From the NCBI GenBank assembly GCA_016218975.1, contig JACRCO010000036.1, positions 1 through 43,115 on the forward strand: a stretch of DNA of 43,115 nt, read 5' to 3'. Under the pieces are notes generated by a model. It did no database searches and was not told the DNA's origin. It saw only the letters and a list, made by a program, of their open reading frames with translations. The position numbers and the translations under genes are program-made. Below are positions 1-42,746 of the stretch, piece by piece (positions within the stretch are counted from its first letter, which is position 1; each line of letters opens with the position of its first letter). The stretch is from Deltaproteobacteria bacterium. Lineage in GTDB: Bacteria > Desulfobacterota > Deferrimicrobia > Deferrimicrobiales > Deferrimicrobiaceae.

Positions 1-1634
1 AGGGATTCCGTGAGTTCCGTCCTGGAAAGCGCGTTGAGCCCCGCCTGGCGTGCCTTCTCCGTGATCGCGCGCGCCAGGGGGGATGAAAGCTCCACCGACC
101 GGGGACGCTTTGCGGGGAGGTAGTAGAAGTCGCCGGTTTTTCCCGCCTCGGCGGCCCCGGCAAGCGAAAGAGCGACCAGCCCCGGGTCGGGACCACCGGG
201 TAGCAGAGTCGAGATCTCGTCTCGCGGGAACCCTTCCCTGTCGGGGAACCGTTTGTGCAGGACGGAAAGGGCCTCGATCGCATTCCGTCCGACGTCTTCC
301 ACTGCGGATCGATGCCATACCCGGGTATTTCCTTCGACTCGCCGTAGCTGCCCGGATTCAACGCCTTTTGCGATCTCCCTGACGGAGGATTCCGGTCCGG
401 AGCCGGTTATGGCCGCGGCCTCGCGGTCCTCCAGCCCCTGCCATCCGGAATCCTCGATCGCCGCCATGATCCGGGTGCCGATTTCCGCCGAATCGAGCAT
501 CGGGAGCGCCGCAGGCACCGCCCTGGCCGCTCCCTTCCTGCGGGGAGGAAGGGGGTGCAGGACACGCCCTCCGCCGACCGTGTAGCCGAAGTTTTCCAGG
601 GGGGAGAATCCGCGCAGTATGAACCGGTCCCCTCCGAGGAGGACCATCTCATCCGCCAGGTGGATCCGCGCGTATCCTGAGCCCCCGGGCGGGATTTCCA
701 CGGTTCCGTAGAGAAGGACCCTCGCCAGCGTGGAAGAGGTAAAGGCGTGAAAGGAAACCTGGGCGCGGTTTTTCAATGGGCGGGGGGCCAGGGGAAGATA
801 TTCGATATATGTCTCCACTATGCGAGTGGGGAACAGCGTTCCCGGACTGCACAGGACGGATCCCCTCGGGGCGCTCTCCTTTTCCACCCCCTGGAGGTTG
901 ACGGCCGTGCGCGTCCCCGCCGTCGAGAACTCCGCCGGTCCTCCATGGACCTGAAGACCCCGGACCCGTGCGACCGGTCCGGCAGGGAGGATCCGGACTT
1001 CATCCCCCGCGCGGATCGTTCCTCCCACCAGCGTTCCGGTAACGACCGTTCCAAATCCCTTCATCGAAAAGGAGCGGTCGACCGGGAGACGGAAGAAAAG
1101 CGAGGGATCTTTCCCGGTAACTCCGGCGGCGATCCTGTCCAGCTCTCCGATCAACCCGGTAAGTCCTTCCCCGGTCGCCGCGGAGACGCGAACCACCGGA
1201 GCCCCCTCAAGGAAAGTTCCGCTGACGAATTTCCCGATATCTTCCTCCAGGAGCGCAAGCCATTCCTCGTCGGCCTTGTCGCACTTGTTGAGGACTACCA
1301 GCCCGTGCCGGATGGAGAGGAGCCTGCAGATGTCCAGGTGTTCCCTTGTTTGCGGCATGACCCCTTCGTCGGCTGCGATCACGAGCATGAGGATGTCCAC
1401 GCCCGCTGCGCCGGCGACCATCGTGCGAACGAATTTCTCGTGTCCGGGCACGTCGATGATCCCCGCCAGTGTCCCCGAAGGCAGCGCGAGGTGCGCGAAC
1501 CCGAGCTCGATCGTGATCCCCCGCTCCTTTTCTTCCTTGAGCCGGTCGGGATCGATCCCCGTCAAGGCTTTGACCAGCGCGCTTTTTCCGTGGTCGATGT
1601 GGCCCGCGGTGCCGATGATCACCCTTTTGGACAT
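1..1634 (-). CDS. selB: Selenocysteine-specific elongation factor SelB (C-terminus outside window)
   Basis: SelB is a GTPase that carries Sec-tRNA to the ribosome at UGA codons followed by a SECIS hairpin. Reading the minus strand from ATG at 1634 gives [20 protein letters not shown], with the P-loop GHIDHGKS, the G3 motif DVPGHEKF and the G4 motif NKCDKAD, followed by EF-Tu-like beta-barrel domains and the start of the winged-helix region. The frame stays open for about 545 codons to the window edge. SelB is usually about 630 residues, so the last winged-helix domains lie outside. It is divergent from the Smr gene with a 46-bp gap. Its presence fits the two in-frame-UGA genes in this window (fdnG and the DsbA-like gene). 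No selA, selD or tRNA-Sec gene is visible here. Confidence 0.95.
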
Positions 1635-30773: not shown

Positions 30774-31859
30774 CTATCGGGGGATTTCCGGGACCTTGAC
30801 GGCGATCGGGTCGCCGGTGAGGGCCTCGACGAGGAAGGTTTTCAGGGCCTGCTTTTCCTTGACGGTCAGCCCCAGCGGGGATAGTTCCCTGTTCCCCGGA
30901 CCGCCGCCCCGGTCGTAGAATTCGATGACGTCCTCCAGGGTTTTCAGCGTCCCGTTATGCATATAGGGAGCGGTTTTCGCGATTTCCCTGAGGGTGGGAG
31001 TCCGGAATGCCTTCCAGTCCTTCTTCTCTTTCGTAATTAAATAACGCCCGGGATCCTCTTCGAGGCTCCGGTAATCCTCGTAGCCGTAGACCTTTGCGAC
31101 GAAACGCCTCGTGGCCGTGATGCGGGGATCTTTAAGATGTTCCGTCTTCTCCGGGACGCCAAGCGCGTGGAACCGCTCGTCCGACAGGAGGGGACCGGAA
31201 TGGCAGTCGGCGCATTTTCCCTTCCCGGTGAAGATTCCGTAACCTTGCCGCGCCTCCGGAGAAAGAGCGTCCTGCGTTCCGGCAAGGTACCGGTCGATCG
31301 GGGCGTTCGCGGAGACCAGCGTCCGCTCGAATGCCGAGATCGCCATCGCAACCCGCATCCTCGTAGGCTCTCCGCCGAACACCTTCCGGAAAGCGCCGTC
31401 GTATTCGGGAACGGCACGGATCTTCTCTTCGAGAAAGTCGAGGTTCAGGTTCATCTCGAATGGTGACATTATCGGAAAAAGCGCCTGCTCTTCGAGCGAC
31501 GCGGCGCGGCCGTCATGGAACAGATGCCTGAAATAGGCCGCGTTGATGAGAGTCGGCGCGTTCCGCCAGTTCCGGGTAGTGGGGTAGCTCAGGGAAAGCT
31601 CCTGGCCGTCCGTGAACGCCTTGTCCGGGATATGGCAGGAGGCGCAGTTCATCGTCCCGTCGCCGGAGAGACGCCGGTCGAAAAAGAGCTTCTTTCCAAG
31701 CTCTATCTTTTCCGGTGTCTGAAGGTTCTCCTTCGGGACAGGCGGCGGGGGAAGCGGGGAAAGGATCCCCGCCGTTGCGGGCGGCGCAAAGAGGAGAAAA
31801 GCCGCTGTCAGGACGGAGGCCGGCGAGAGGCTGTACGCTGAATCACTTCGCCGCCGCAA
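30774..31859 (-). CDS. Di-haem cytochrome c peroxidase / MauG-family protein
   Basis: A 361-residue periplasmic protein with a signal peptide (residues 11-31) and two haem c sites, C72ASCH76 and C216ADCH220. RTPTLREIAKTAPYMHNGTLKTLEDVIEFYDRGGG is the characteristic C-terminal peroxidase region. The family reduces hydrogen peroxide with electrons from small c-type cytochromes. Some members, such as MauG, oxidise proteins instead. The start is TTG at 31859, overlapping the end of the DsbA-like gene by 17 bp, with GGAGGAAGAG upstream. It is the last gene of the formate dehydrogenase operon and ends 6 bp from the convergent kinase gene. Confidence 0.92.
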   Translation of the reverse strand: MRRRSDSAYSLSPASVLTAAFLLFAPPATAGILSPLPPPPVPKENLQTPEKIELGKKLFFDRRLSGDGTMNCASCHIPDKAFTDGQELSLSYPTTRNWRNAPTLINAAYFRHLFHDGRAASLEEQALFPIMSPFEMNLNLDFLEEKIRAVPEYDGAFRKVFGGEPTRMRVAMAISAFERTLVSANAPIDRYLAGTQDALSPEARQGYGIFTGKGKCADCHSGPLLSDERFHALGVPEKTEHLKDPRITATRRFVAKVYGYEDYRSLEEDPGRYLITKEKKDWKAFRTPTLREIAKTAPYMHNGTLKTLEDVIEFYDRGGGPGNRELSPLGLTVKEKQALKTFLVEALTGDPIAVKVPEIPR

Positions 31860-32451
31860 GCTCTTCCTCCACGATCTCCCTGAGATATTCGTAGTCGCGG
31901 TCGCCTACGACTTTCCGTCCGTTTATGAAATACGTCGGCGTGCTGTAGAGGTCAAGCGATTCGGCGAGCTTCCGATCGCGTTCGATGACATAGGCGTGTT
32001 TCGCACCGTCGAGGGAATTCGTGAATTTTCCCAGGTCCAGTCCGATCTCCCTTGCGCAACGAAGGAGATTCCCGCGATCCAGGTCGGGAGAATTCAGGAG
32101 AAGAAGATGATGCATCTCCCAGAACTTACCCTGTTCTCCCGCAGCAAGCGCCGCTTCGGAGGCGATGATGGAAAAGTCCCGGTAGCGGTAGGGGTACTGC
32201 TTTACGACCATCCGTATTTTTCCCGGGAAGTTTTTCAGGAGTTTCTCGACGGTCGGACCGGCCGCCTTGCAGTGCGGTCACTGGTAATCGACGAACTCGA
32301 TCAGCGTGACGGGGGCGTTCGCGGGACCTACCGCCTGCGAATCGCCCACGGGAACGTCGAAACGAGTTTCCGCGGCGGACGGGGACGCAACGGCGTGAAG
32401 AATGACGGCCGCTGAGAGGATCGCGAGGAATGGGAACCGGCACCGACGCAA
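31843..32451 (-). CDS. DsbA-like thiol oxidoreductase, predicted selenoprotein (UGA at 32280-32278)
   Basis: Two open pieces in the same frame are separated only by one TGA. The joined protein reads ...PVTLIEFVDYQ-U-PHCKAAGPTVEKLL..., where DsbA-family proteins have C-P-x-C. The UGA therefore sits at the catalytic nucleophile, giving UPHC. After it the thioredoxin fold continues with the helical insert and the cis-Pro loop LYSTPTYFING. A signal peptide (FPFLAILSAAVILHAVASPSAAE) places it in the periplasm. The start TTG at 32451 follows AGGAGG by five bases; ATG at 32472 is an alternative with no ribosome site. A small hairpin (32260-32250) starts 17 bases after UGA and could be part of a SECIS. 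It lies 48 bp after fdhD-mobA. Confidence 0.85.
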
Positions 32452-32499
32452 ATAGTCCTCCTGCTTCCTCATTTCGATGGGAGGCGCAGGCCCCGGGGT

Positions 32500-33948
32500 T
32501 CAACCTCCGTCTTTCCCCGTGTGCGGCTTCCCGTGTTCCGCGGATTGCGCCGGCTTCCCCTCTTCGCGGAAACGGAAGTACTCCTCCGGGGTATTGATGT
32601 TCCGGAAGGAACGGAAGTCGGGGTCGAGCCTGGAAACCTCCCCTGCGGAGACCTTCCGGACTTTCACCTTGTCGAAAAAGGAAACGACCCTTCCTTTTCC
32701 CGCGTGGAGGGCATCCTCGATGGCCGGAAGCGCGCTTTTCCCGTACACGGCGTGCAGCGGCTCGAGCCCTTTCGTCCCCTCGGGGACGACCACGTCGTTT
32801 TCATCCGCAAGAGAGGCCAGGTGGCGGATCAGGCCGGGGTTGAGGTTCGGCATGTCGCAGGCGGCGACGAATACGCGCGGGTCCTGGCTGTGGAAGAGTC
32901 CCGAGTGGATCCCCGACAACGCTCCCATCCCCGGGATCAGGTCCTTCACTTTCGGGCAGGGAAGGAAATCGAAGAGCTGCGGAGTGTTGGTGACGATCAG
33001 GACGTTACGGAAGAGGGAGGCCATCTGCCGGTGGATCGCCTCGACGAACCTTCCTCCCTGGTAGGGAAGGAGAGCCTTGTTGCTCCCCATGCGGCTGGAT
33101 GCGCCTCCGGCAAGTATGACGCCGGTGACGCCGTCGATCCGCACTTCCTCGGGCGGAAAGGCGAGCCGTTCCGGGCCGGCATAAAGGTTGAACTTTCCCC
33201 CCCGCGCGTAACCGATAAGGGCGATCCCGTGCTCCCGTGCCAACCGGACCGCGAGGTCGGTCGGGGAGGTGCGCGAGGCGATAAGGACGATTCCCAGGGA
33301 GACCGCCTTCGATACCAGTTCGGACGAGATCCTGCCGGAGGTCACGAGGATCATCCCGGACAGATCGATGTTCTTCAGCAGCGCCTCGCCTGCGATCCGG
33401 TCCAGCGTGTTGTGGCGTCCTATGTCCTCCGCGTGCAAAAGGACGGTACGGCCGTCCCCGACTGCGGCGGAGTGGATCCCTCCATGGCTCCTGTAGTTCT
33501 CCGCGCGCCTGGCGAGTTCGTTCATCATGGTGAAGACGTCGGCCGGGGAATAGATCCGCTCTTCTTTTGCGGCAGCGCGGTCATTTCGCGGCAGCGGTTG
33601 CTGGAGTTTGAACGAGATCCCCGCGCCGCAGCCGGAAGTGAGCGTCGGGGTGAGCCTCGAGGGCACCTCGCCGCGAATCCGGACTGTGGCCGCGCCGAAG
33701 TCCCCGCATACGCTGAGCGCGAGCAGGTCGTCGGCCCTTTTCACCAGCCCCTGCATACGCAGGAACCCTGCCACAAGGTAAACAAGATCGTGTGGAGAAG
33801 CGATGAGCGTGGCGAGTTCGATTCCGTTGACGGTAAGCGCGATAGGGAATTCCCTGACGGGAAAGTGGTCGGTTCCGGAAAGCCGCCGCCCGTCGTATCG
33901 CAGTACGGGAAGAGGCGTTTCCGTTTCTTCCTTTTCCTTTTCGCTCAT
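32500..33948 (-). CDS. fdhD: FdhD-MobA fusion protein
   Basis: A 482-residue fusion. Residues about 20-262 are FdhD, the sulfurtransferase that passes sulfur from a cysteine desulfurase to the Mo/W-bis-pterin cofactor of formate dehydrogenase. It is recognised by EFPIALTVNG, HDLVYLVAGFL, ILVTSGRISSELVSKAV and GFNLYAG-type ends. Residues about 274-482 are MobA, which adds GMP to molybdopterin, with GVILAGGASSRMGSNKALL and GMGALSGIHSGL. The FdhD cysteine loop is SGC107GAG; the second cysteine of the classical CxxC is missing. The start overlaps the fdhE stop by ATGA. Fusing two steps of cofactor maturation is sensible because both act before insertion. Confidence 0.9.
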   Translation of the reverse strand: MSEKEKEETETPLPVLRYDGRRLSGTDHFPVREFPIALTVNGIELATLIASPHDLVYLVAGFLRMQGLVKRADDLLALSVCGDFGAATVRIRGEVPSRLTPTLTSGCGAGISFKLQQPLPRNDRAAAKEERIYSPADVFTMMNELARRAENYRSHGGIHSAAVGDGRTVLLHAEDIGRHNTLDRIAGEALLKNIDLSGMILVTSGRISSELVSKAVSLGIVLIASRTSPTDLAVRLAREHGIALIGYARGGKFNLYAGPERLAFPPEEVRIDGVTGVILAGGASSRMGSNKALLPYQGGRFVEAIHRQMASLFRNVLIVTNTPQLFDFLPCPKVKDLIPGMGALSGIHSGLFHSQDPRVFVAACDMPNLNPGLIRHLASLADENDVVVPEGTKGLEPLHAVYGKSALPAIEDALHAGKGRVVSFFDKVKVRKVSAGEVSRLDPDFRSFRNINTPEEYFRFREEGKPAQSAEHGKPHTGKDGG

Positions 33949-34793
33949 CGGCCCTTCTCGAAGCCTTCCTTGCCCGCCAGCAGATCCAGGTGAAGCGTAG
34001 AAAGATCTTCCGCTTCCAGCGGTACGTCTCCGTTTCCCTTGCGGGAATCCCTTGTCTTTATATACCGGGTGCACTTGCGGCAGACGCCCACGCGGACAGG
34101 CTCGTCTCCGGCGACGAAGTAGGACAGGCTCTCCGGATCCTGGTTCCCGCAAAAGGGGCATTTAAGCCTTGGAAAGGCCCACCGGAAGGAGCAGGCGGAG
34201 CAGGAGAGAAGCCGCTTTCCTTCTTCCCCTGCCAGTTCGTCCATACCCGCCCGCGATCCGCAGACCGGGCAATATCCTTCCTTCCAGCCTTCCACAGCCT
34301 TCGGATCGACCGATTCCGCGGCCACCGAAAGCGCGGTTTTAAGGGAAACTTCCAGTATGAACGTCAAAAGCGGCGGGCGGACGGAAATCGCGGCGGAGGC
34401 CTCCTCTACGCATTTCCTTTCCCGTTGAAGACAGGCGGAAAGGAGGGGCGCGAGGTCAAGGGAGTTTTCCTTGAGCGCCTGCCCGATCCGGTCGAGCTCT
34501 TCACCTCCGAGGGGATCGCGATTCACCCCGCGCATGACTCCCACGATGCCGTCGAGGAACGACGCCGCCCTTTCCCGATCGATGGAAAGGCTCTCCGGGG
34601 CGAGAAGGGGGAGGCCGCCTTCGATTCTCTCGGCTTCGAAACGATCGGGGAGGGAAAAGGAGATGCCGGTCTCCCCTTCCCTCCCGTCTATGTATGCGAA
34701 AAGGCCCTGGAACAGAGAAAGGATCTCACGGTACTCCGGCTTTTCCCGTACCGTGCGATCGAGGTGTTCGCGTTTTCTGGCGGTCTGCGGCAT
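33945..34793 (-). CDS. fdhE: Formate dehydrogenase accessory protein FdhE
   Basis: A 282-residue cytoplasmic maturation factor for respiratory formate dehydrogenase. The C-terminal rubredoxin-like region has four Cys-pair knuckles in order: YCPVCGS (about 173-179), LSCSACSFRW, LKCPFCGNQD and GVCRKCTRY. These bind iron or zinc in the family. The N-terminal part is helical. The gene is directly downstream of the cytochrome b subunit by 22 bp and overlaps fdhD-mobA by ATGA. FdhE acts on the catalytic subunit before Tat export, which fits the Tat signal on FdnG. Confidence 0.92.
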   Translation of the reverse strand: MPQTARKREHLDRTVREKPEYREILSLFQGLFAYIDGREGETGISFSLPDRFEAERIEGGLPLLAPESLSIDRERAASFLDGIVGVMRGVNRDPLGGEELDRIGQALKENSLDLAPLLSACLQRERKCVEEASAAISVRPPLLTFILEVSLKTALSVAAESVDPKAVEGWKEGYCPVCGSRAGMDELAGEEGKRLLSCSACSFRWAFPRLKCPFCGNQDPESLSYFVAGDEPVRVGVCRKCTRYIKTRDSRKGNGDVPLEAEDLSTLHLDLLAGKEGFEKGR

Positions 34794-34815: not shown

Positions 34816-35427
34816 TTACTGGCCCGATATCTCCTTATACCATTTCGGATGGTGGGTTTTCGCCCAGATTTTTCGGACGTTCCCGTAGATCATGCTTTCG
34901 AGCGTGCCCGGGTTTCCGATGGTGGTCAGGTAGGCATGGACGATCACGAACATGATGAAGAGGATGAAAAGAAGTCCGTGTATCAATAGTGAGATCTGGA
35001 CGATGCCGATCGGGAACGACCCGGGGAACCAGTTGATGAATCCGGTGACGCCGAGAATGATCGTCGCTATCCCCATGAACAGCCCGTAAGCTTTTTGCCC
35101 GGCGTTGAACTTGCCGCTGTTTATGTGTTCCGGGTCCCGGTCGAGGTATCCTCCCAGCAGTTTGAACCATCGCCGGTCGTCCTCGTCGAAAAAATTCATT
35201 TCCTTGAAATGGTTGAAGAAGAGCAGGACGGAACTTACGAAGAAGACGACCCCCGTGTATTTATGGACGAAGATGGCGGCTTCCCCCCCGCCGAAGAGGT
35301 CGAAATATCCGTGAAAAATCCTGGAGTAAAGTCCCAGTCCCGAAAACACCAGCATGAAGAACGACACCATCACGAACCAGTGGAGGATCCTTTCCCTCGC
35401 GTTGAACCTTTCTATGGATTTACCCAT
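34816..35427 (-). CDS. fdnI: Formate dehydrogenase cytochrome b556 subunit
   Basis: A 203-residue membrane subunit with four helices, the usual size for FdnI/FdoI. It starts with FNARERILHWFVMVSFFMLVFSGL, whose His is a haem ligand, and has VHKYTGVVFFVSSVLLFFNHF and LIHGLLFILFIMFVIVHAYL with further haem-type histidines. It passes electrons from the iron-sulfur subunit to menaquinone, which the window's mqn-like genes would help make. It overlaps fdnH by eight bases, so the two are co-translated. Confidence 0.93.
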   Translation of the reverse strand: MGKSIERFNARERILHWFVMVSFFMLVFSGLGLYSRIFHGYFDLFGGGEAAIFVHKYTGVVFFVSSVLLFFNHFKEMNFFDEDDRRWFKLLGGYLDRDPEHINSGKFNAGQKAYGLFMGIATIILGVTGFINWFPGSFPIGIVQISLLIHGLLFILFIMFVIVHAYLTTIGNPGTLESMIYGNVRKIWAKTHHPKWYKEISGQ

Positions 35428-36199
35428 TGGCGCCTCCTCCCTTCTCCGAATTCTCCTCCTCCAGTTTTCTGGGTCCGAAGGTGACGTAGTGCGTCAGCAC
35501 GCCGATGATGCTGCCCCAGAATCCGATGAGCCCAAGGGGTTTGAGTACGTCCTTCCACAGGAAGACGGCCGTGGGAATGGAGGGGTTGGCCGCAAGGCCG
35601 TAGCTTTCAGGCTTGTCGTCCAGCAGGTAAAGCACGCCCAGGCCGGAGAGGTCCGCCTCTCCGTAAACGGTCTTCTTCGACGCCTTCGCCTTGGCGACGA
35701 GCCCGCTTCTCGGGCCGTACTGAAGCGCCTGCGTCGGGCATGCCTTCGCGCAGGCGGGGAACATCCCCGCCCCGATCCGGTCGGAGCAGAGGTGGCACTT
35801 GGAGACCTTCTCGCCGGTGCCGTAGCGCGGAGCCCCGAAGGGGCAGGCCGAAACGCAATACTTGCAGGAAATGCACTTCTCCGCATTGAAGGCGACGAAC
35901 CCTTCCCGGGTGCGGTAGAGGGCGCCCGGCGAAGGACAAACCTTCAGGCACCCGGCGTCTCCGCAGTGCATGCACCTTTCGTTCAGGAAGAGCCATTTCA
36001 CGTTTCCGCCGTCGGACTTCTCGACGAACCGGATCCGGTTATAAAGGTTGGGTGTCAGGTCGCGGGGGTTCTCGTAGGTCCCCTGGTTCACGGTTTTGTC
36101 GGGATCGAGCTTGTTCCACTGCTTGCAAGCCACCTGGCAGGAGCGGCAGCCTATGCAGCGCGACGTATCGACCAGAAATCCCATTCTCGATTCGGCCAT
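35420..36199 (-). CDS. fdnH: Formate dehydrogenase iron-sulfur subunit
   Basis: A 259-residue electron-transfer subunit with four [4Fe-4S] cysteine groups: CIGCRSCQVACKQWN (about 15-29), CMHCGDAGCLKVCPSPGALY (about 76-95), CISCKYCVSACPFGAPRY (about 109-126) and CHLCSDRIGAGMFPACAKACP (about 135-155). A hydrophobic C-terminal segment (LGLIGFWGSIIGVLTHYV) can anchor it in the membrane as in FdnH. It has no own signal and is probably exported with FdnG. The gene lies 7 bp after fdnG and overlaps fdnI by 8 bp. Confidence 0.94.
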   Translation of the reverse strand: MAESRMGFLVDTSRCIGCRSCQVACKQWNKLDPDKTVNQGTYENPRDLTPNLYNRIRFVEKSDGGNVKWLFLNERCMHCGDAGCLKVCPSPGALYRTREGFVAFNAEKCISCKYCVSACPFGAPRYGTGEKVSKCHLCSDRIGAGMFPACAKACPTQALQYGPRSGLVAKAKASKKTVYGEADLSGLGVLYLLDDKPESYGLAANPSIPTAVFLWKDVLKPLGLIGFWGSIIGVLTHYVTFGPRKLEEENSEKGGGANG

Positions 36200-36206
36200 G
36201 GCTATC

Positions 36207-39200
36207 TCACCCCTTGCTCTTGATATTGACCATGAACGCCTTCGTTTCCGGGATCATGGTGTTGGCGTCCCCGACCGTCGGGGTAAGCAGGTTCGCCGAG
36301 TCCCCTACGGCCGGCGTGCACCACCCGAAGCACCAGGGCATGCCGACCTGGTGGACGATGGAATTTGCCACCTTGAACGGCTTGAAGCGCGGGGTGACCA
36401 CGGCGACGGCATCGATCTTCCCCCTCACGGAGGAAACCTCCAGCAGATCGCCGTTCCTGATGTTCTTCTCCTTGGCCAGTTCCTGGGAGAGCTCGACGAA
36501 CTGCCTGGGCTGAAGCTCGAGCAGCCATGGGACGTTCCGGGACAGGACCCCGGTCTGCCAATGTTCCGTGACCCTGTAGGTAGTGGCCACGTACGGGAAA
36601 CGCTTGTCGTTCGAGGCGTATGCGTCTTCGGGCATCCCGTCGCTCGAGAATATCTTCGCGGCGGGATTCACCCGCTGTTTGGAAAGCGGGTTTTCCGCGA
36701 CCGGGCATTCCAGCGGCTCGTAATGCTCTGGGAAGGGGCCGTCCTTCAGGCCCGGCCCGAAGAGCGCAGCGACGCCGTCGGCCCGCATGATGTACGGCTT
36801 CTTCCCTTCCTTCTCGTTGCCCATCGGGGGCCACGGCCCGTCCGGAACGTCCCCCGCCCATGCGCCGAACTTGCCGTCCGGCAGCGGTGCGGCCGGGTTC
36901 CAGTAGATGACCGCCTTCTTCGGGTTGAACGGCTTGCCGTCGAGGTCGACGGAAGCGCGGTTGTATATGATCCGGCGGTTGACCGGCCAAGCCCACGCCC
37001 ACTCGTTGAAAAGTCCCAGGCCTGTGGGGTCCTTCTTCCCCCGCCGCGCCATCATGTTTCCCTTCTCGTTGTAGCTCTGGCAGTAGATCCAGGAGCCGCA
37101 GGAGGTGGTGCCGTCGGGCTGGAGCGCGGCGAAACCGGGCACCAGTTCCCCCTTCTTTCCGAGGAGCTTCTCCTTGGGCGGCTTCTGCCCCGGCTTCGGC
37201 TTGTTCGGCACGTCGGCTACAAAGTACCCGTTGATCTCCTTTGCCACGGCGTGAATGTCCACCGTCTTGACGGTTCCGTCGGCCCGCTTGAAGCCGTATC
37301 CCCAGGCAAGGTTCATCAGCGGATCGGGGAATGCCCCTTTCTCCTTGGCGTAGAGCCCCTTGATCCGGTAGAAGAGGTCGTTCATGATCTCGGCATCGGG
37401 TCGGGACTGCCCGAGCGGCTTCACCGCAGGGACTCGCCACTGCGCCATTCGTGAAGAATTCGTGATGCTCCCTTCCTTCTCGAACGACGCGGCGGCCGGC
37501 AGGAAGAAAACTTCCGTTTTGATCTTCGACGGGTCGACGCCCGGCCCCTTCCAGAACGACGCCGTCTCGTTGTCGAAGAGGTTGACGGCCACCATCCACT
37601 CGAGATTTCCGAGCGCCTTACGAACCTTCCCCGCGTTGGTGCCGGAGCAGGCTGGGTTCTGGCCCCATGCGAAGAACCCCTTGAATTTCCCGCGGGCCAT
37701 GTTGTCGAAGAGCATGATCCACGACAGGTTCATTCCGGGGTCGGTCTTCGGCAGCCAGTGGTATCCGAAGTCGTTCTGCTTCGTCGCCTTCGCCCCGTAT
37801 ATCGCCTTGAGGTAGGAGACGATGTACTTGTTCCGGTTCCCCCACCAGTTGGCGCTCATCGGGTCTTTCGTTTTCGGAGTGTATTTCTCGATGTATGCGT
37901 TCAGGTCCTTGATGTCCGCGGACGGCACCGGCATGTAGCCGGGGAGGATGTGGAAGAGAACGCCGTGGTCGGTGGAGCCCTGGACGTTGGACTCCCCGCG
38001 CATGGCGTTCACGCCGCCGCCGGCAACGCCCATGTTGCCCAGCAGGAGCTGGATGATCGACATCGCGCGGATATTCTGCGTCCCCACGGTGTGCTGGGTC
38101 CATCCCATCGCGTACAGGGAAGTCCCGGCCCGGTCCGGCTTGCCGGTTGAGGCGTATGCTTCGTAGACCTTGAGGAGCGTTTCCTTCGGCGTACCGGTTA
38201 TGTTCGAAACCATATCCGGCGTGTACCGGGAGTAGTGCTTCTTCATGAGCTGGAACACGCAACGGGGATTCGTCAGGGATTCGTCCTTTACGATCTTGTC
38301 GTCCTTGTCCTTGAGGAAACCCCACTTCTTGTTGTCGTAGGCCCGCTTCTTTGTGTCGTAACCCGAGAAGAGGCCGGCGAGCTCCCCGGGGCCCTTGAAA
38401 TCCGTGCCGACCACGTAGCTCGCGTTGGTGTACTTCTTGACGGGAAGCTCCATGTAGAGCTTGTTCTGAAGGATGTAGTTGATCATCCCGCCGAGGAAGG
38501 CTATGTCGGTCCCAGAGCGGAGTGGCGCGTATATGTCGGCCTTCGATGCACTCCGGGTGAAGCGGGGGTCAACGACGATGATCTTGCCGCCCGCATCCTT
38601 GGCCTTCATGATCCACCGGAAGGCGACCGGGTGGTTCTCCGCGGGGTTGGCCCCCATGATGAGCACTACGTCAGCGTTCTTTACGTCTACCCAGTGATTC
38701 GTCATCGCGCCGCGTCCGAACGACTCTGCCAGAGCCGCTACAGTGGCGCTGTGTCATATTCGCGCCTGGTGTTCTATGGCGACCAGGCCCAACCCCCTCA
38801 TCATCTTCTGGAGGAGATAGCACTCCTCGTTGTCCAGGGCGGCGCTGCCGACGTGGGCGATCCCCATCGTCCGGTTCACGACCGCCTCGATTTCCTTCTC
38901 CACTTCCTTGTCGCCCACCTTCTCCTTGACCTTGATCCTGGATTTGGCCTGGAAGGTGGCGTCCCGGGTTTTTTTCGTGCGCTTGGCTATCTCGTCGAGC
39001 GCCCAGTCCCAGTCGACCTCTTTCCATTCCTTCTCGCCCGGGGCCCGGTAACGCGGCTTCGTCACCCGGGTGGCGTTGTCGCGCAGCTGGATTACGGCGG
39101 AACCCTTCGGGCAGAGCGACCCCTCGTTGATGGGGTGGTCGGGGTCCCCCTCCACGTTGATCAAGTTTCCGTTCAGGGTGTGCAGGATCATCCCGCAGCC

Positions 39201-39356
39201 GACGGAGCAGTAGGGGCAGATGCTCGTCGACTCCTTCGCGTACCGGATCTGAAGGTCCTGGGCCTTCGCTTCGACCGGCTCGAGGGACAGGCCGAACACC
39301 CCGGCGGCCAGCCCGGCTCCGGAGAGCTTGAACAATTCCCTCCTGGAAATCGCCAT
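36207..39356 (-). CDS. fdnG: Formate dehydrogenase catalytic subunit, selenocysteine-containing, Tat-exported
   Basis: A 1,049-residue molybdo- or tungsto-enzyme interrupted by one in-frame TGA at 38756-38754. Reading it as Sec201 gives HQARI-U-HSATVAALAESFGRGAMTNHW, which matches the FdnG active site (E. coli Sec196). The N-terminus has the Tat motif SRRELFKLSGAG, then the [4Fe-4S] ligands CPYCSVGCGM and SLCPKG. Downstream are typical pterin-binding regions such as IMGANPAENHPV and GQNPACSGTNAGKV. The start is ATG at 39356, with AGGAGG eight bases upstream. It oxidises formate in the periplasm and passes electrons to FdnH and FdnI. It heads a seven-gene operon. Confidence 0.96.
38721..38737 (-). 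promoter_or_regulatory. Candidate bacterial SECIS hairpin in fdnG
   Basis: In the mRNA, CGGCUCU and AGAGUCG pair over seven base pairs (one G-U) around a GGC loop. The hairpin begins 16 bases after the UGA, within the distance used by SelB. Loop guanines are also a feature of known bacterial SECIS elements. The exact fold was judged by eye. Confidence 0.65.
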
Positions 39357-39499
39357 GCGTTGCACCTCCTTGGTTCTTGCGGCGTGTTTATCGGTAATAA
39401 AACCGTCGTGAGAACGTAAAAATGCTTCGGTTCTGTTGTCAGGGCACCTGCCTGGAGATTGAATATCGCGGGGTGTGGAATCGAAGGTGCGAAGAGATA

Positions 39500-41079: not shown

Positions 41080-41892
41080 GTGAGCCGTACAAAATATCCG
41101 CTGGAAGTATCCGGGACGGTCTGGCTCGGAAAGGGGGACGACGTCCTCCTGGGCAGCGACCGTATAGGGCTGCTGGAAAAAATCGGGGAATGCGGTTCGA
41201 TCACGAAGGCGGCCCGGGCGGCGGGGATAAGCTATAAAACCGCATGGGATATCGTAAGCGCCGTCAACAACCTCTCGGAAAAACCGCTCGTCCGGCGGAT
41301 GACGGGAGGCAAGGGAGGGGGAGGCACGGTCCTCACGGAGGAGGGCAAGGACGTCGTCCGAAGATACCGTGTCCTTCAAAAGGAACACGAGAGGTTTCTG
41401 GGTGGGCTTTCGGAGAAGATCGGGGATGTGGAAACCTTTTACCGGTTTTTACGGAGGATCGCCGTGAGAGTGAGCGCGAGGAACACTTTTTTGGGAAAGG
41501 TAGCCGGCATAAAAAAAGGTGCTGTAAGCACGGAGGTGACGCTGTCGCTCAAGGGAGGCGACACGGTAGTCGCGGTCATCACGAAGGAGAGCGCGGAAAG
41601 CCTGGGGCTCCGGAAGGGGGCGGATGCGTACGGCATCATCAAGGCGAGTTCGGTCCTGCTGGGAAAAGATCTCCACGAAGCGAAGATCAGCGCCCGGAAC
41701 CTGCTGTGCGGCACCGTGGAGACGCTCGCGGAAGGGCCGGTGAACGAGGAAGTGACCGTAAAACTTTCGGGAGGAAATATTCTGACCTCTATCATAACCC
41801 GGGAAAGCGCGAAGAAACTTGCACTGAAACACGGCGACCACGTATGCGCCGTCGTCAAGGCGTCAAGCGTCATCCTGGGGGTGAGCGGATGA
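41080..41892 (+). CDS. modE: ModE-type molybdate/tungstate-responsive regulator
   Basis: A 270-residue regulator with the complete ModE layout. An N-terminal LysR-like winged helix (about 20-110: LLEKIGECGSITKAARAAGISYKTAWDIVSAVNN) is followed by two TOBE/Mop oxyanion-binding domains. These are ARNTFLGKVAGIKKGAVSTEV..IIKASSVLL (about 131-193) and SARNLLCGTVETLAEGPVNEEV..VVKASSVIL (about 203-266). The start is GTG at 41080. It is preceded by the porin, and its stop overlaps tupA by ATGA. It probably binds the palindrome at 39653-39678 and controls its own operon. Confidence 0.93.
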   Translation: MSRTKYPLEVSGTVWLGKGDDVLLGSDRIGLLEKIGECGSITKAARAAGISYKTAWDIVSAVNNLSEKPLVRRMTGGKGGGGTVLTEEGKDVVRRYRVLQKEHERFLGGLSEKIGDVETFYRFLRRIAVRVSARNTFLGKVAGIKKGAVSTEVTLSLKGGDTVVAVITKESAESLGLRKGADAYGIIKASSVLLGKDLHEAKISARNLLCGTVETLAEGPVNEEVTVKLSGGNILTSIITRESAKKLALKHGDHVCAVVKASSVILGVSG

Positions 41893-42746
41893 CCAGGCCG
41901 GGGGCGGAGAGGTTCCGCTGCCCGATGTCGTTTCTTTTTTCGTTCGCTTTCCTTTTAATACTTGCGGCGGATGTGAATCATCCCGCTCCGGCATTCGCGC
42001 AGGATCGGCTGCGCATGTCCACAACCACTTCCACGGAGAACTCCGGGCTCCTCGCGGTACTCCTTCCCCCCTTCGAGAAAAAATACGGGTGCAAGATCGA
42101 TGTGATCGCGGTGGGGACGGGCAAATCGCTCAAGCTGGGGGAGACCGGGGACGTGGATGTGGTATTCGTTCATGCGAGGAAGCTCGAGGACAAGTTCGTC
42201 GCCGACGGGTTCGGGGTGAACCGGAGGGACGTCATGTACAACGATTTCGTGATACTGGGCCCGGCGGATGATCCTGCGGGAACACGGAAAACGGGTACCG
42301 CGGTCGAGGCGTTCTCCCGGATCGCCGCGGCGCAGGCCCGCTTTGTATCGAGGGGCGACGAGTCCGGAACGCATCAGAAGGAGAAGGAGATCTGGCAGTC
42401 CGCCGGTATCGTGCCGAAAGGGAAATGGTACATGGCCGCGGGCCAGGGTATGGGCGAGGTGATCCAGATTGCCGGCCAGGTGCGCGGCTACACCCTTGCC
42501 GACCGCGGGACCTACATAGCGTACAAGAAGAAAACCGACCTCGTCGTCGTGCGGGAGGGAGACAAGGGGCTTTGGAATCCGTACGGCATAATCGCCGTGA
42601 ACCCCGCCCGGCACAAGCACGCGAAGTATGACCTGTCGATGAAGCTCATCGAGTACGTGACCGGCGAGGAGGGGCGGCGGATCATCGCCGGCTTCAAGAT
42701 CGACGGCGAGCCCCTCTTCTTCGTCCACGGCGCCAAGGGACACTAA
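41889..42746 (+). CDS. tupA: Tungstate-type ABC transporter periplasmic binding protein (TupA-like)
   Basis: A 285-residue exported binding protein. After a signal peptide (FLFSFAFLLILAADVNHPAPAFAQ) it has the TupA signature STTTSTENSGLLAVLLPPFE, then VIAVGTGKSLKLGETGDVDVVFVHAR, VMYNDFVILGP and RGDESGTHQKEKEIW. These fit tungstate-binding TupA better than molybdate-binding ModA. The start overlaps modE by ATGA. The permease and ATPase genes (tupB, tupC) are not adjacent: the 369 bp after it are repeats with no gene. They may lie beyond the window or be displaced. Confidence 0.9.
   Translation: MTRPGAERFRCPMSFLFSFAFLLILAADVNHPAPAFAQDRLRMSTTTSTENSGLLAVLLPPFEKKYGCKIDVIAVGTGKSLKLGETGDVDVVFVHARKLEDKFVADGFGVNRRDVMYNDFVILGPADDPAGTRKTGTAVEAFSRIAAAQARFVSRGDESGTHQKEKEIWQSAGIVPKGKWYMAAGQGMGEVIQIAGQVRGYTLADRGTYIAYKKKTDLVVVREGDKGLWNPYGIIAVNPARHKHAKYDLSMKLIEYVTGEEGRRIIAGFKIDGEPLFFVHGAKGH

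Follow-up and report, generated by a model that had tools for sequence, protein, structure and literature searches.

The window that we analyzed, a stretch of 43,115 nucleotides from a Deltaproteobacteria bacterium, almost certainly encodes a DsbA-like protein with selenocysteine (Sec) at its active site. Gene order across the orthologous loci indicates that this gene and its neighbor, which encodes a di-haem protein of the CCP/MauG family, are the constant unit and that a formate dehydrogenase (FDH) is the usual company of this unit. What is new here is the genomic context of the clade to which the protein belongs; proteins of this kind have been known since 2005. The best overall explanation, to which we give an even chance of being right, is that the DsbA with its Sec nucleophile and the di-haem protein form a unit that acts as a periplasmic oxidative-protection pair.

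The gene for the Sec protein lies on the minus strand at 31843..32451, with its stop codon (TGA) at 31845-31843. When TGA is read as Sec, 209 codons stay open on this strand and a single internal TGA is found, at codon 65 (32278..32280), where it specifies the first position of a UPHC motif. The translation around this site is GPANAPVTLIEFVDYQ-U-PHCKAAGPTVEKLLKN, which gives the local context FVDYQ-U-PHC. The frame is intact on both sides of the TGA, as the earlier note on this DNA had stated, and the span given there (31843-32472) has to be changed only at the start: the ATG at 32472 is an alternative, but the TTG at 32451 is probably the start that is used. An AGGAGG ribosome-binding site for this TTG can be read directly from the sequence at 32457..32462 (minus strand), at a spacing of 5 nt, and a start at the TTG keeps the hydrophobic signal-like N-terminus, which ends in ASPSAA-ET. 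Mechanical ORF calling breaks the gene at the UGA and keeps the part after it alone (31843..32211, 122 aa), which is the kind of mishandling by automatic annotation that had been anticipated.

The product is predicted to have the DsbA-like thioredoxin fold that the earlier note had proposed for it. Pfam searches returned Thioredoxin_4 (9.7e-25) and DSBA (1.6e-19), the AlphaFold2 model calculated from the alignment had a mean pLDDT of 92.7, and the best matches among solved structures were Wolbachia alpha-DsbA2, a Silicibacter DsbA-like protein, BdbD, C. diphtheriae DsbA and ScsC. The T-P motif (T178-P179), position 65 (Sec or Cys) and C68 are invariant in the alignment. DsbA-like selenoproteins with a UxxC motif were reported from Sargasso Sea data in 2005 and from several genomes in 2006, and they appear as a family in a 2026 review (PMC1088965, PMC1794560, PMC13188914), according to which their functions are largely uncharacterized (PMC13188914). 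By its domain and its UxxC motif the window protein is a further member of this family. It shares with the DsbA-like selenoproteins of 'form 1' (PF01323) the DsbA/thioredoxin-like domain, Sec as the first residue of the CxxC motif and a putative SECIS element after the UGA, and Cys homologs are widespread for both the window clade and the known family; it differs from the published members in that its clade is all-Sec, mostly UPHC, tied to the di-haem gene and usually part of an FDH operon. The best NCBIfam match was NF041057, the Rcas_1661 family of thioredoxin-like (seleno)lipoproteins, which has been entered as DsbG-like (PMC13188914); the fold and the site are the same, but the score of 87.7 bits is below the cut-off of 190 and membership in that family was rejected. 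The fold and the T-P motif are also common to classical DsbA, BdbD, ScsC and Wolbachia alpha-DsbA2, and the PH dipeptide is that of classical DsbA, from which the window protein differs in having Sec for Cys, in its operon context and in that the usual oxidant, DsbB, was not found in the window genome.

The reading of the UGA as Sec was examined by comparison with homologs, a search that the earlier note had suggested. Across 130 aligned loci the residue at the UGA site was Cys in 242 cases, UGA in 31 (the window counted) and Ala, Ser or Thr in 7, the last of these being divergent domains; the TGA does stand in place of the first catalytic Cys, as had been claimed. Close relatives recovered from genome searches (44-75% identity) have exactly one in-frame TGA each, and the UGA is found at the same codon in 22 of 22 close orthologs, which come from separate assemblies. 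Comparison of these orthologs revealed many synonymous changes with conserved amino acids on both flanks of the UGA. The Gly codon at position 7 after the UGA is GGT in all 22, whereas GGT makes up just 9% of Gly codons at the remaining sites of these genes; a probability calculated for this contrast disregards how closely the orthologs are related and is not to be read literally. The window genome contains SelA, SelB, SelD and tRNA-Sec, each scoring over its cut-off, and SelB is encoded in the window itself, as had been noted (534..1622, minus strand; 304 bits, over the cut-off; profile positions 1-342), in an open frame that runs on toward the contig end. SelB would insert Sec at the UGA using a bacterial SECIS directly after the codon.

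A putative SECIS upper stem-loop was located on comparative evidence at 32249..32265 (minus strand), that is, at nucleotides 16-32 counted from the U of the UGA. The GGT Gly codon and the codon that follows it give an invariant GGUC at 32259-32256 (nt 22-25), a spacing identical to that in E. coli fdhF; we confirmed the sequence of the fdhF element in E. coli genomes. In the ortholog alignment 90.5% of the cells of the stem (nt 16-22 with 26-32) are paired, far above most slid versions (22-61%). The covariation of the stem is modest and near that of shuffles on two measures; our case leans on the fixed GGT codon and the spacing, and covariation alone was set aside. Folding of the RNA after the UGA, also suggested in the earlier note, gave a divided outcome: the window copy folded alone, which carries a C-A mismatch inside the stem (nt 20/28), did no better than shuffles (z 0.24), whereas the ortholog comparison, through the GGUC, the GGT and the pairing, revealed a stem-loop with an apical G just after the UGA. 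An Rfam scan of the window returned tRNA as the sole match. The Cys/Sec equivalence, the fixed GGT, the GGUC at the fdhF position, the stem pairing and the Sec machinery together argue strongly for Sec insertion. That the gene is a pseudogene, or the UGA a sequencing error or a true stop that is left untranslated, would agree with the insignificant single-sequence fold of the window copy, but is extremely improbable for a codon that one clade of orthologs from separate assemblies shares without exception, with synonymous changes and a conserved protein on both sides, a GGT fixed in every copy and a complete Sec machinery in the genome.

Other UGA-containing genes were seen in the course of these searches. 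Five UGA DsbA homologs outside the module (L014, L019, L026, L027 and L049) have a different hairpin-like element further downstream of the UGA, for example CTCGAGCAGGTGCTCGAG, and the element of L026 carries CCAGC/GCTGG; this suggests that the SECIS elements of the non-module Sec DsbA lineages arose separately. A Myxococcales bin from Lake Baikal (L084) encodes several DsbA-like domains, among them two UGA and two Cys versions, and the same GGTCGGTCCGACC core recurs in the UGA versions. The window genome's own SelD (contig C3:20088-20882, minus strand) also has an in-frame TGA.

In a tree of 84 homologs the 22 paired Sec orthologs form one clade (support 100/98), which includes records named as Nitrospirota, Thermodesulfobacteriota and Myxococcota; most of these records are metagenome bins. 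Over the tree as a whole 8 Cys/Sec changes are required. On this tree Sec has been gained or lost repeatedly elsewhere and is constant in the paired clade (22/22). Because the clade is all-Sec while Cys and Sec alternate in the rest of the tree, the pattern suggests that the paired clade needs Sec for its function.

The gene order on the minus strand of the window is fdnG, encoding the FDH-N alpha subunit (36207..39365), fdnH, encoding the beta subunit with 4Fe-4S clusters (35420..36199), fdnI, encoding the gamma subunit, a cytochrome b (34816..35427), fdhE (33945..34793), an fdhD-mobA fusion (32500..34161, where the ORF start probably precedes the true one), the Sec DsbA gene and the di-haem CCP/MauG gene (30774..31859). 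The Sec protein had been described as lying inside the FDH operon; it is a gene of that operon, and its exact place is near the 3' end, with the fdhD-mobA fusion on one side and the di-haem gene on the other. Two further statements about its surroundings agree with our results: the main enzyme of the operon is itself a selenoprotein (FDH-N alpha, Sec codon TGA at 38756-38754), and the neighbor belongs to the di-haem peroxidases by family (PF03150, 5.7e-52; two CxxCH motifs), its open frame overlapping the stop of the DsbA gene. FdhD and MobA in one open frame were also seen in relatives such as L131-L134. Elsewhere in the window, a 500-aa frame (41244-42746) has a TupA-like tungstate-binding domain in its second half only (252-494), and a fused piece of a transporter may make up the first half.

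The di-haem gene directly follows the Sec DsbA gene in 21 of the 21 orthologous loci that could be judged; one more (L004) was left out of this count because its contig ends there. Beside other DsbA homologs no relative of the di-haem gene was found in any of 95 loci with enough downstream flank, and none was found near FDH in loci without the Sec DsbA (41 FDH C-terminal sequences). FdnG is on the same stretch as the pair in most orthologous loci, and the membrane module of these FDH loci varies, being FdnI or, in L056, a protein of the NrfD/HmcC type. In one locus (L055) the pair lies beside signaling genes, and no FDH turned up over a distance of about 7-8 kb. FDH was accordingly rejected as an obligate partner, the di-haem gene being the constant one. 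We regard the pair as the unit because the di-haem gene is present in 21 of 21 loci, because the pair occurs once without FDH and because FDH loci that lack the DsbA gene also lack the di-haem gene. A pairing with the di-haem gene plus the usual FDH operon was not found described in the open-licence literature that we searched.

The neighbor protein has PF03150 and two CxxCH motifs in common with the di-haem enzymes CCP, MauG and MbnH. In this protein and its relatives the two CxxCH motifs are retained and supply all of the conserved Cys, and a FEMN motif is invariant. It is unlike CCP at the site that corresponds to Met275 of the P. aeruginosa enzyme, a residue that we take to be the axial ligand of the high-potential haem: the window protein has Tyr315 there and the relatives have mostly Phe or Leu, never Met in the readable copies. 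Its scores against the NCBIfam models of MauG (237 bits, cut-off 443.85) and MbnH (208.7 bits, cut-off 362.85) are below the cut-offs. Because the equivalent of Met275 is absent, the protein may not be a classical peroxidase. With its relatives in L131-L145 and L051-L056, the protein at 30774-31859 is possibly an undescribed subfamily.

The thiol redox partners available to the Sec protein were sought in the genomes. A profile search of the window genome (97.6% complete) gave neither DsbB nor VKOR at E 0.001, which are the components looked for in a classical DsbA system, and did find two DsbD_TM proteins. Of the 22 genomes that carry the pair, 4 had DsbB and 1 had VKOR over the respective cut-off, and 17 had neither. 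From the two DsbD_TM proteins, the failure to detect DsbB or VKOR in the window genome and their scarcity in the module genomes, we lean toward a role of the Sec DsbA in reduction over one in oxidation.

The frame, the Cys/Sec equivalence, the constraint at the RNA level, the Sec machinery, the predicted fold and the pairing are all read from sequence, and the role that we propose is built upon them. The Sec DsbA would be a thiol-disulfide oxidoreductase with a selenocysteine nucleophile (UPHC), exported by means of its signal-like N-terminus, and would form a fixed two-gene unit with the di-haem protein that is usually made together with a Sec-containing FDH-N. Going by the family name of the neighbor, the di-haem protein would remove peroxide near the formate respiratory chain, while the Sec protein would reduce oxidized thiols of periplasmic proteins and would itself probably be maintained in the reduced state by a transporter of the DsbD/CcdA type. 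The earlier note had suggested peroxide defense or the maturation of cytochromes and FDH as possible roles. The strict pairing (21/21) favors a role tied to the di-haem protein, and protection of FDH can be at most a part of what the pair does, because L055 has the pair without FDH. We put forward this role, that of a periplasmic oxidative-protection pair usually found with a Sec-FDH, as a tentative one that falls somewhat short of an even chance.

The strict pairing would equally agree with dedicated thiol handling, in which the Sec protein, in the manner of CcmG or ResA, would reduce (or oxidize) the cysteines of the CxxCH motifs before the haem is attached to the apo-cytochrome, and the four CxxCH cysteines are indeed the sole conserved cysteines of the di-haem proteins. 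However, the general machinery of cytochrome c maturation ought to suffice for the di-haem protein, and no precedent for a factor that matures just one cytochrome of this kind was found in the open-licence literature searched, so that we consider this role unlikely. The two proteins could also be direct redox partners, either with the selenol as donor for peroxide reduction or with the haem driving DsbA oxidation without DsbB. Besides the pairing, this would fit the loss of the CCP axial Met, which suggests unusual electron transfer, and the 17 module genomes with neither DsbB nor VKOR over the cut-off, as well as the failure to find either in the window genome. Against it, haem chemistry proceeds by one electron and thiol chemistry by two, and we know of no thioredoxin-fold donor of a CCP/MauG protein; direct partnership is improbable to us, and we hold just as lightly the broader picture of a selenol-dependent haem-peroxidase couple, a thiol-fed peroxidase or a DsbB-replacing disulfide former, that would usually be wired to formate respiration. 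A general periplasmic disulfide oxidase, the classical DsbA role, with Sec by happenstance, would be in keeping with UPHC, which we take to correspond to the CPHC of classical DsbA, and with BdbD and alpha-DsbA2 among the best fold matches, but its chance is small given the fixed operon context and a window genome in which no DsbB or VKOR was found. That the Sec protein acts on the allosteric disulfide of the FDH enzyme (C845-C872 in D. vulgaris FdhA) and so toggles FDH between an active state and one protected from O2 is very doubtful: this disulfide controls the activity of D. vulgaris FdhAB (PMC11323313, PMC13397495) and both cysteines occur in 16 of 17 FDHs beside a Sec DsbA, but FDHs from loci that lack the DsbA gene have the Cys pair almost as often (33 of 41; Fisher p 0.26), and the window FDH alpha subunit (36207-39365), which retains the first Cys (887), has Asn at residue 919 for the second. 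Being not specific across these 58 FDH sequences, and with the second Cys missing from the window FDH, the switch was rejected as the shared reason for the module.

Annotation of the truncated ORF in place of the whole gene would conceal both the gene and its pairing with the di-haem gene. The fixed partner and the usual operon give a concrete, testable context to this clade, which belongs to a family that has been listed for some two decades with no function assigned.
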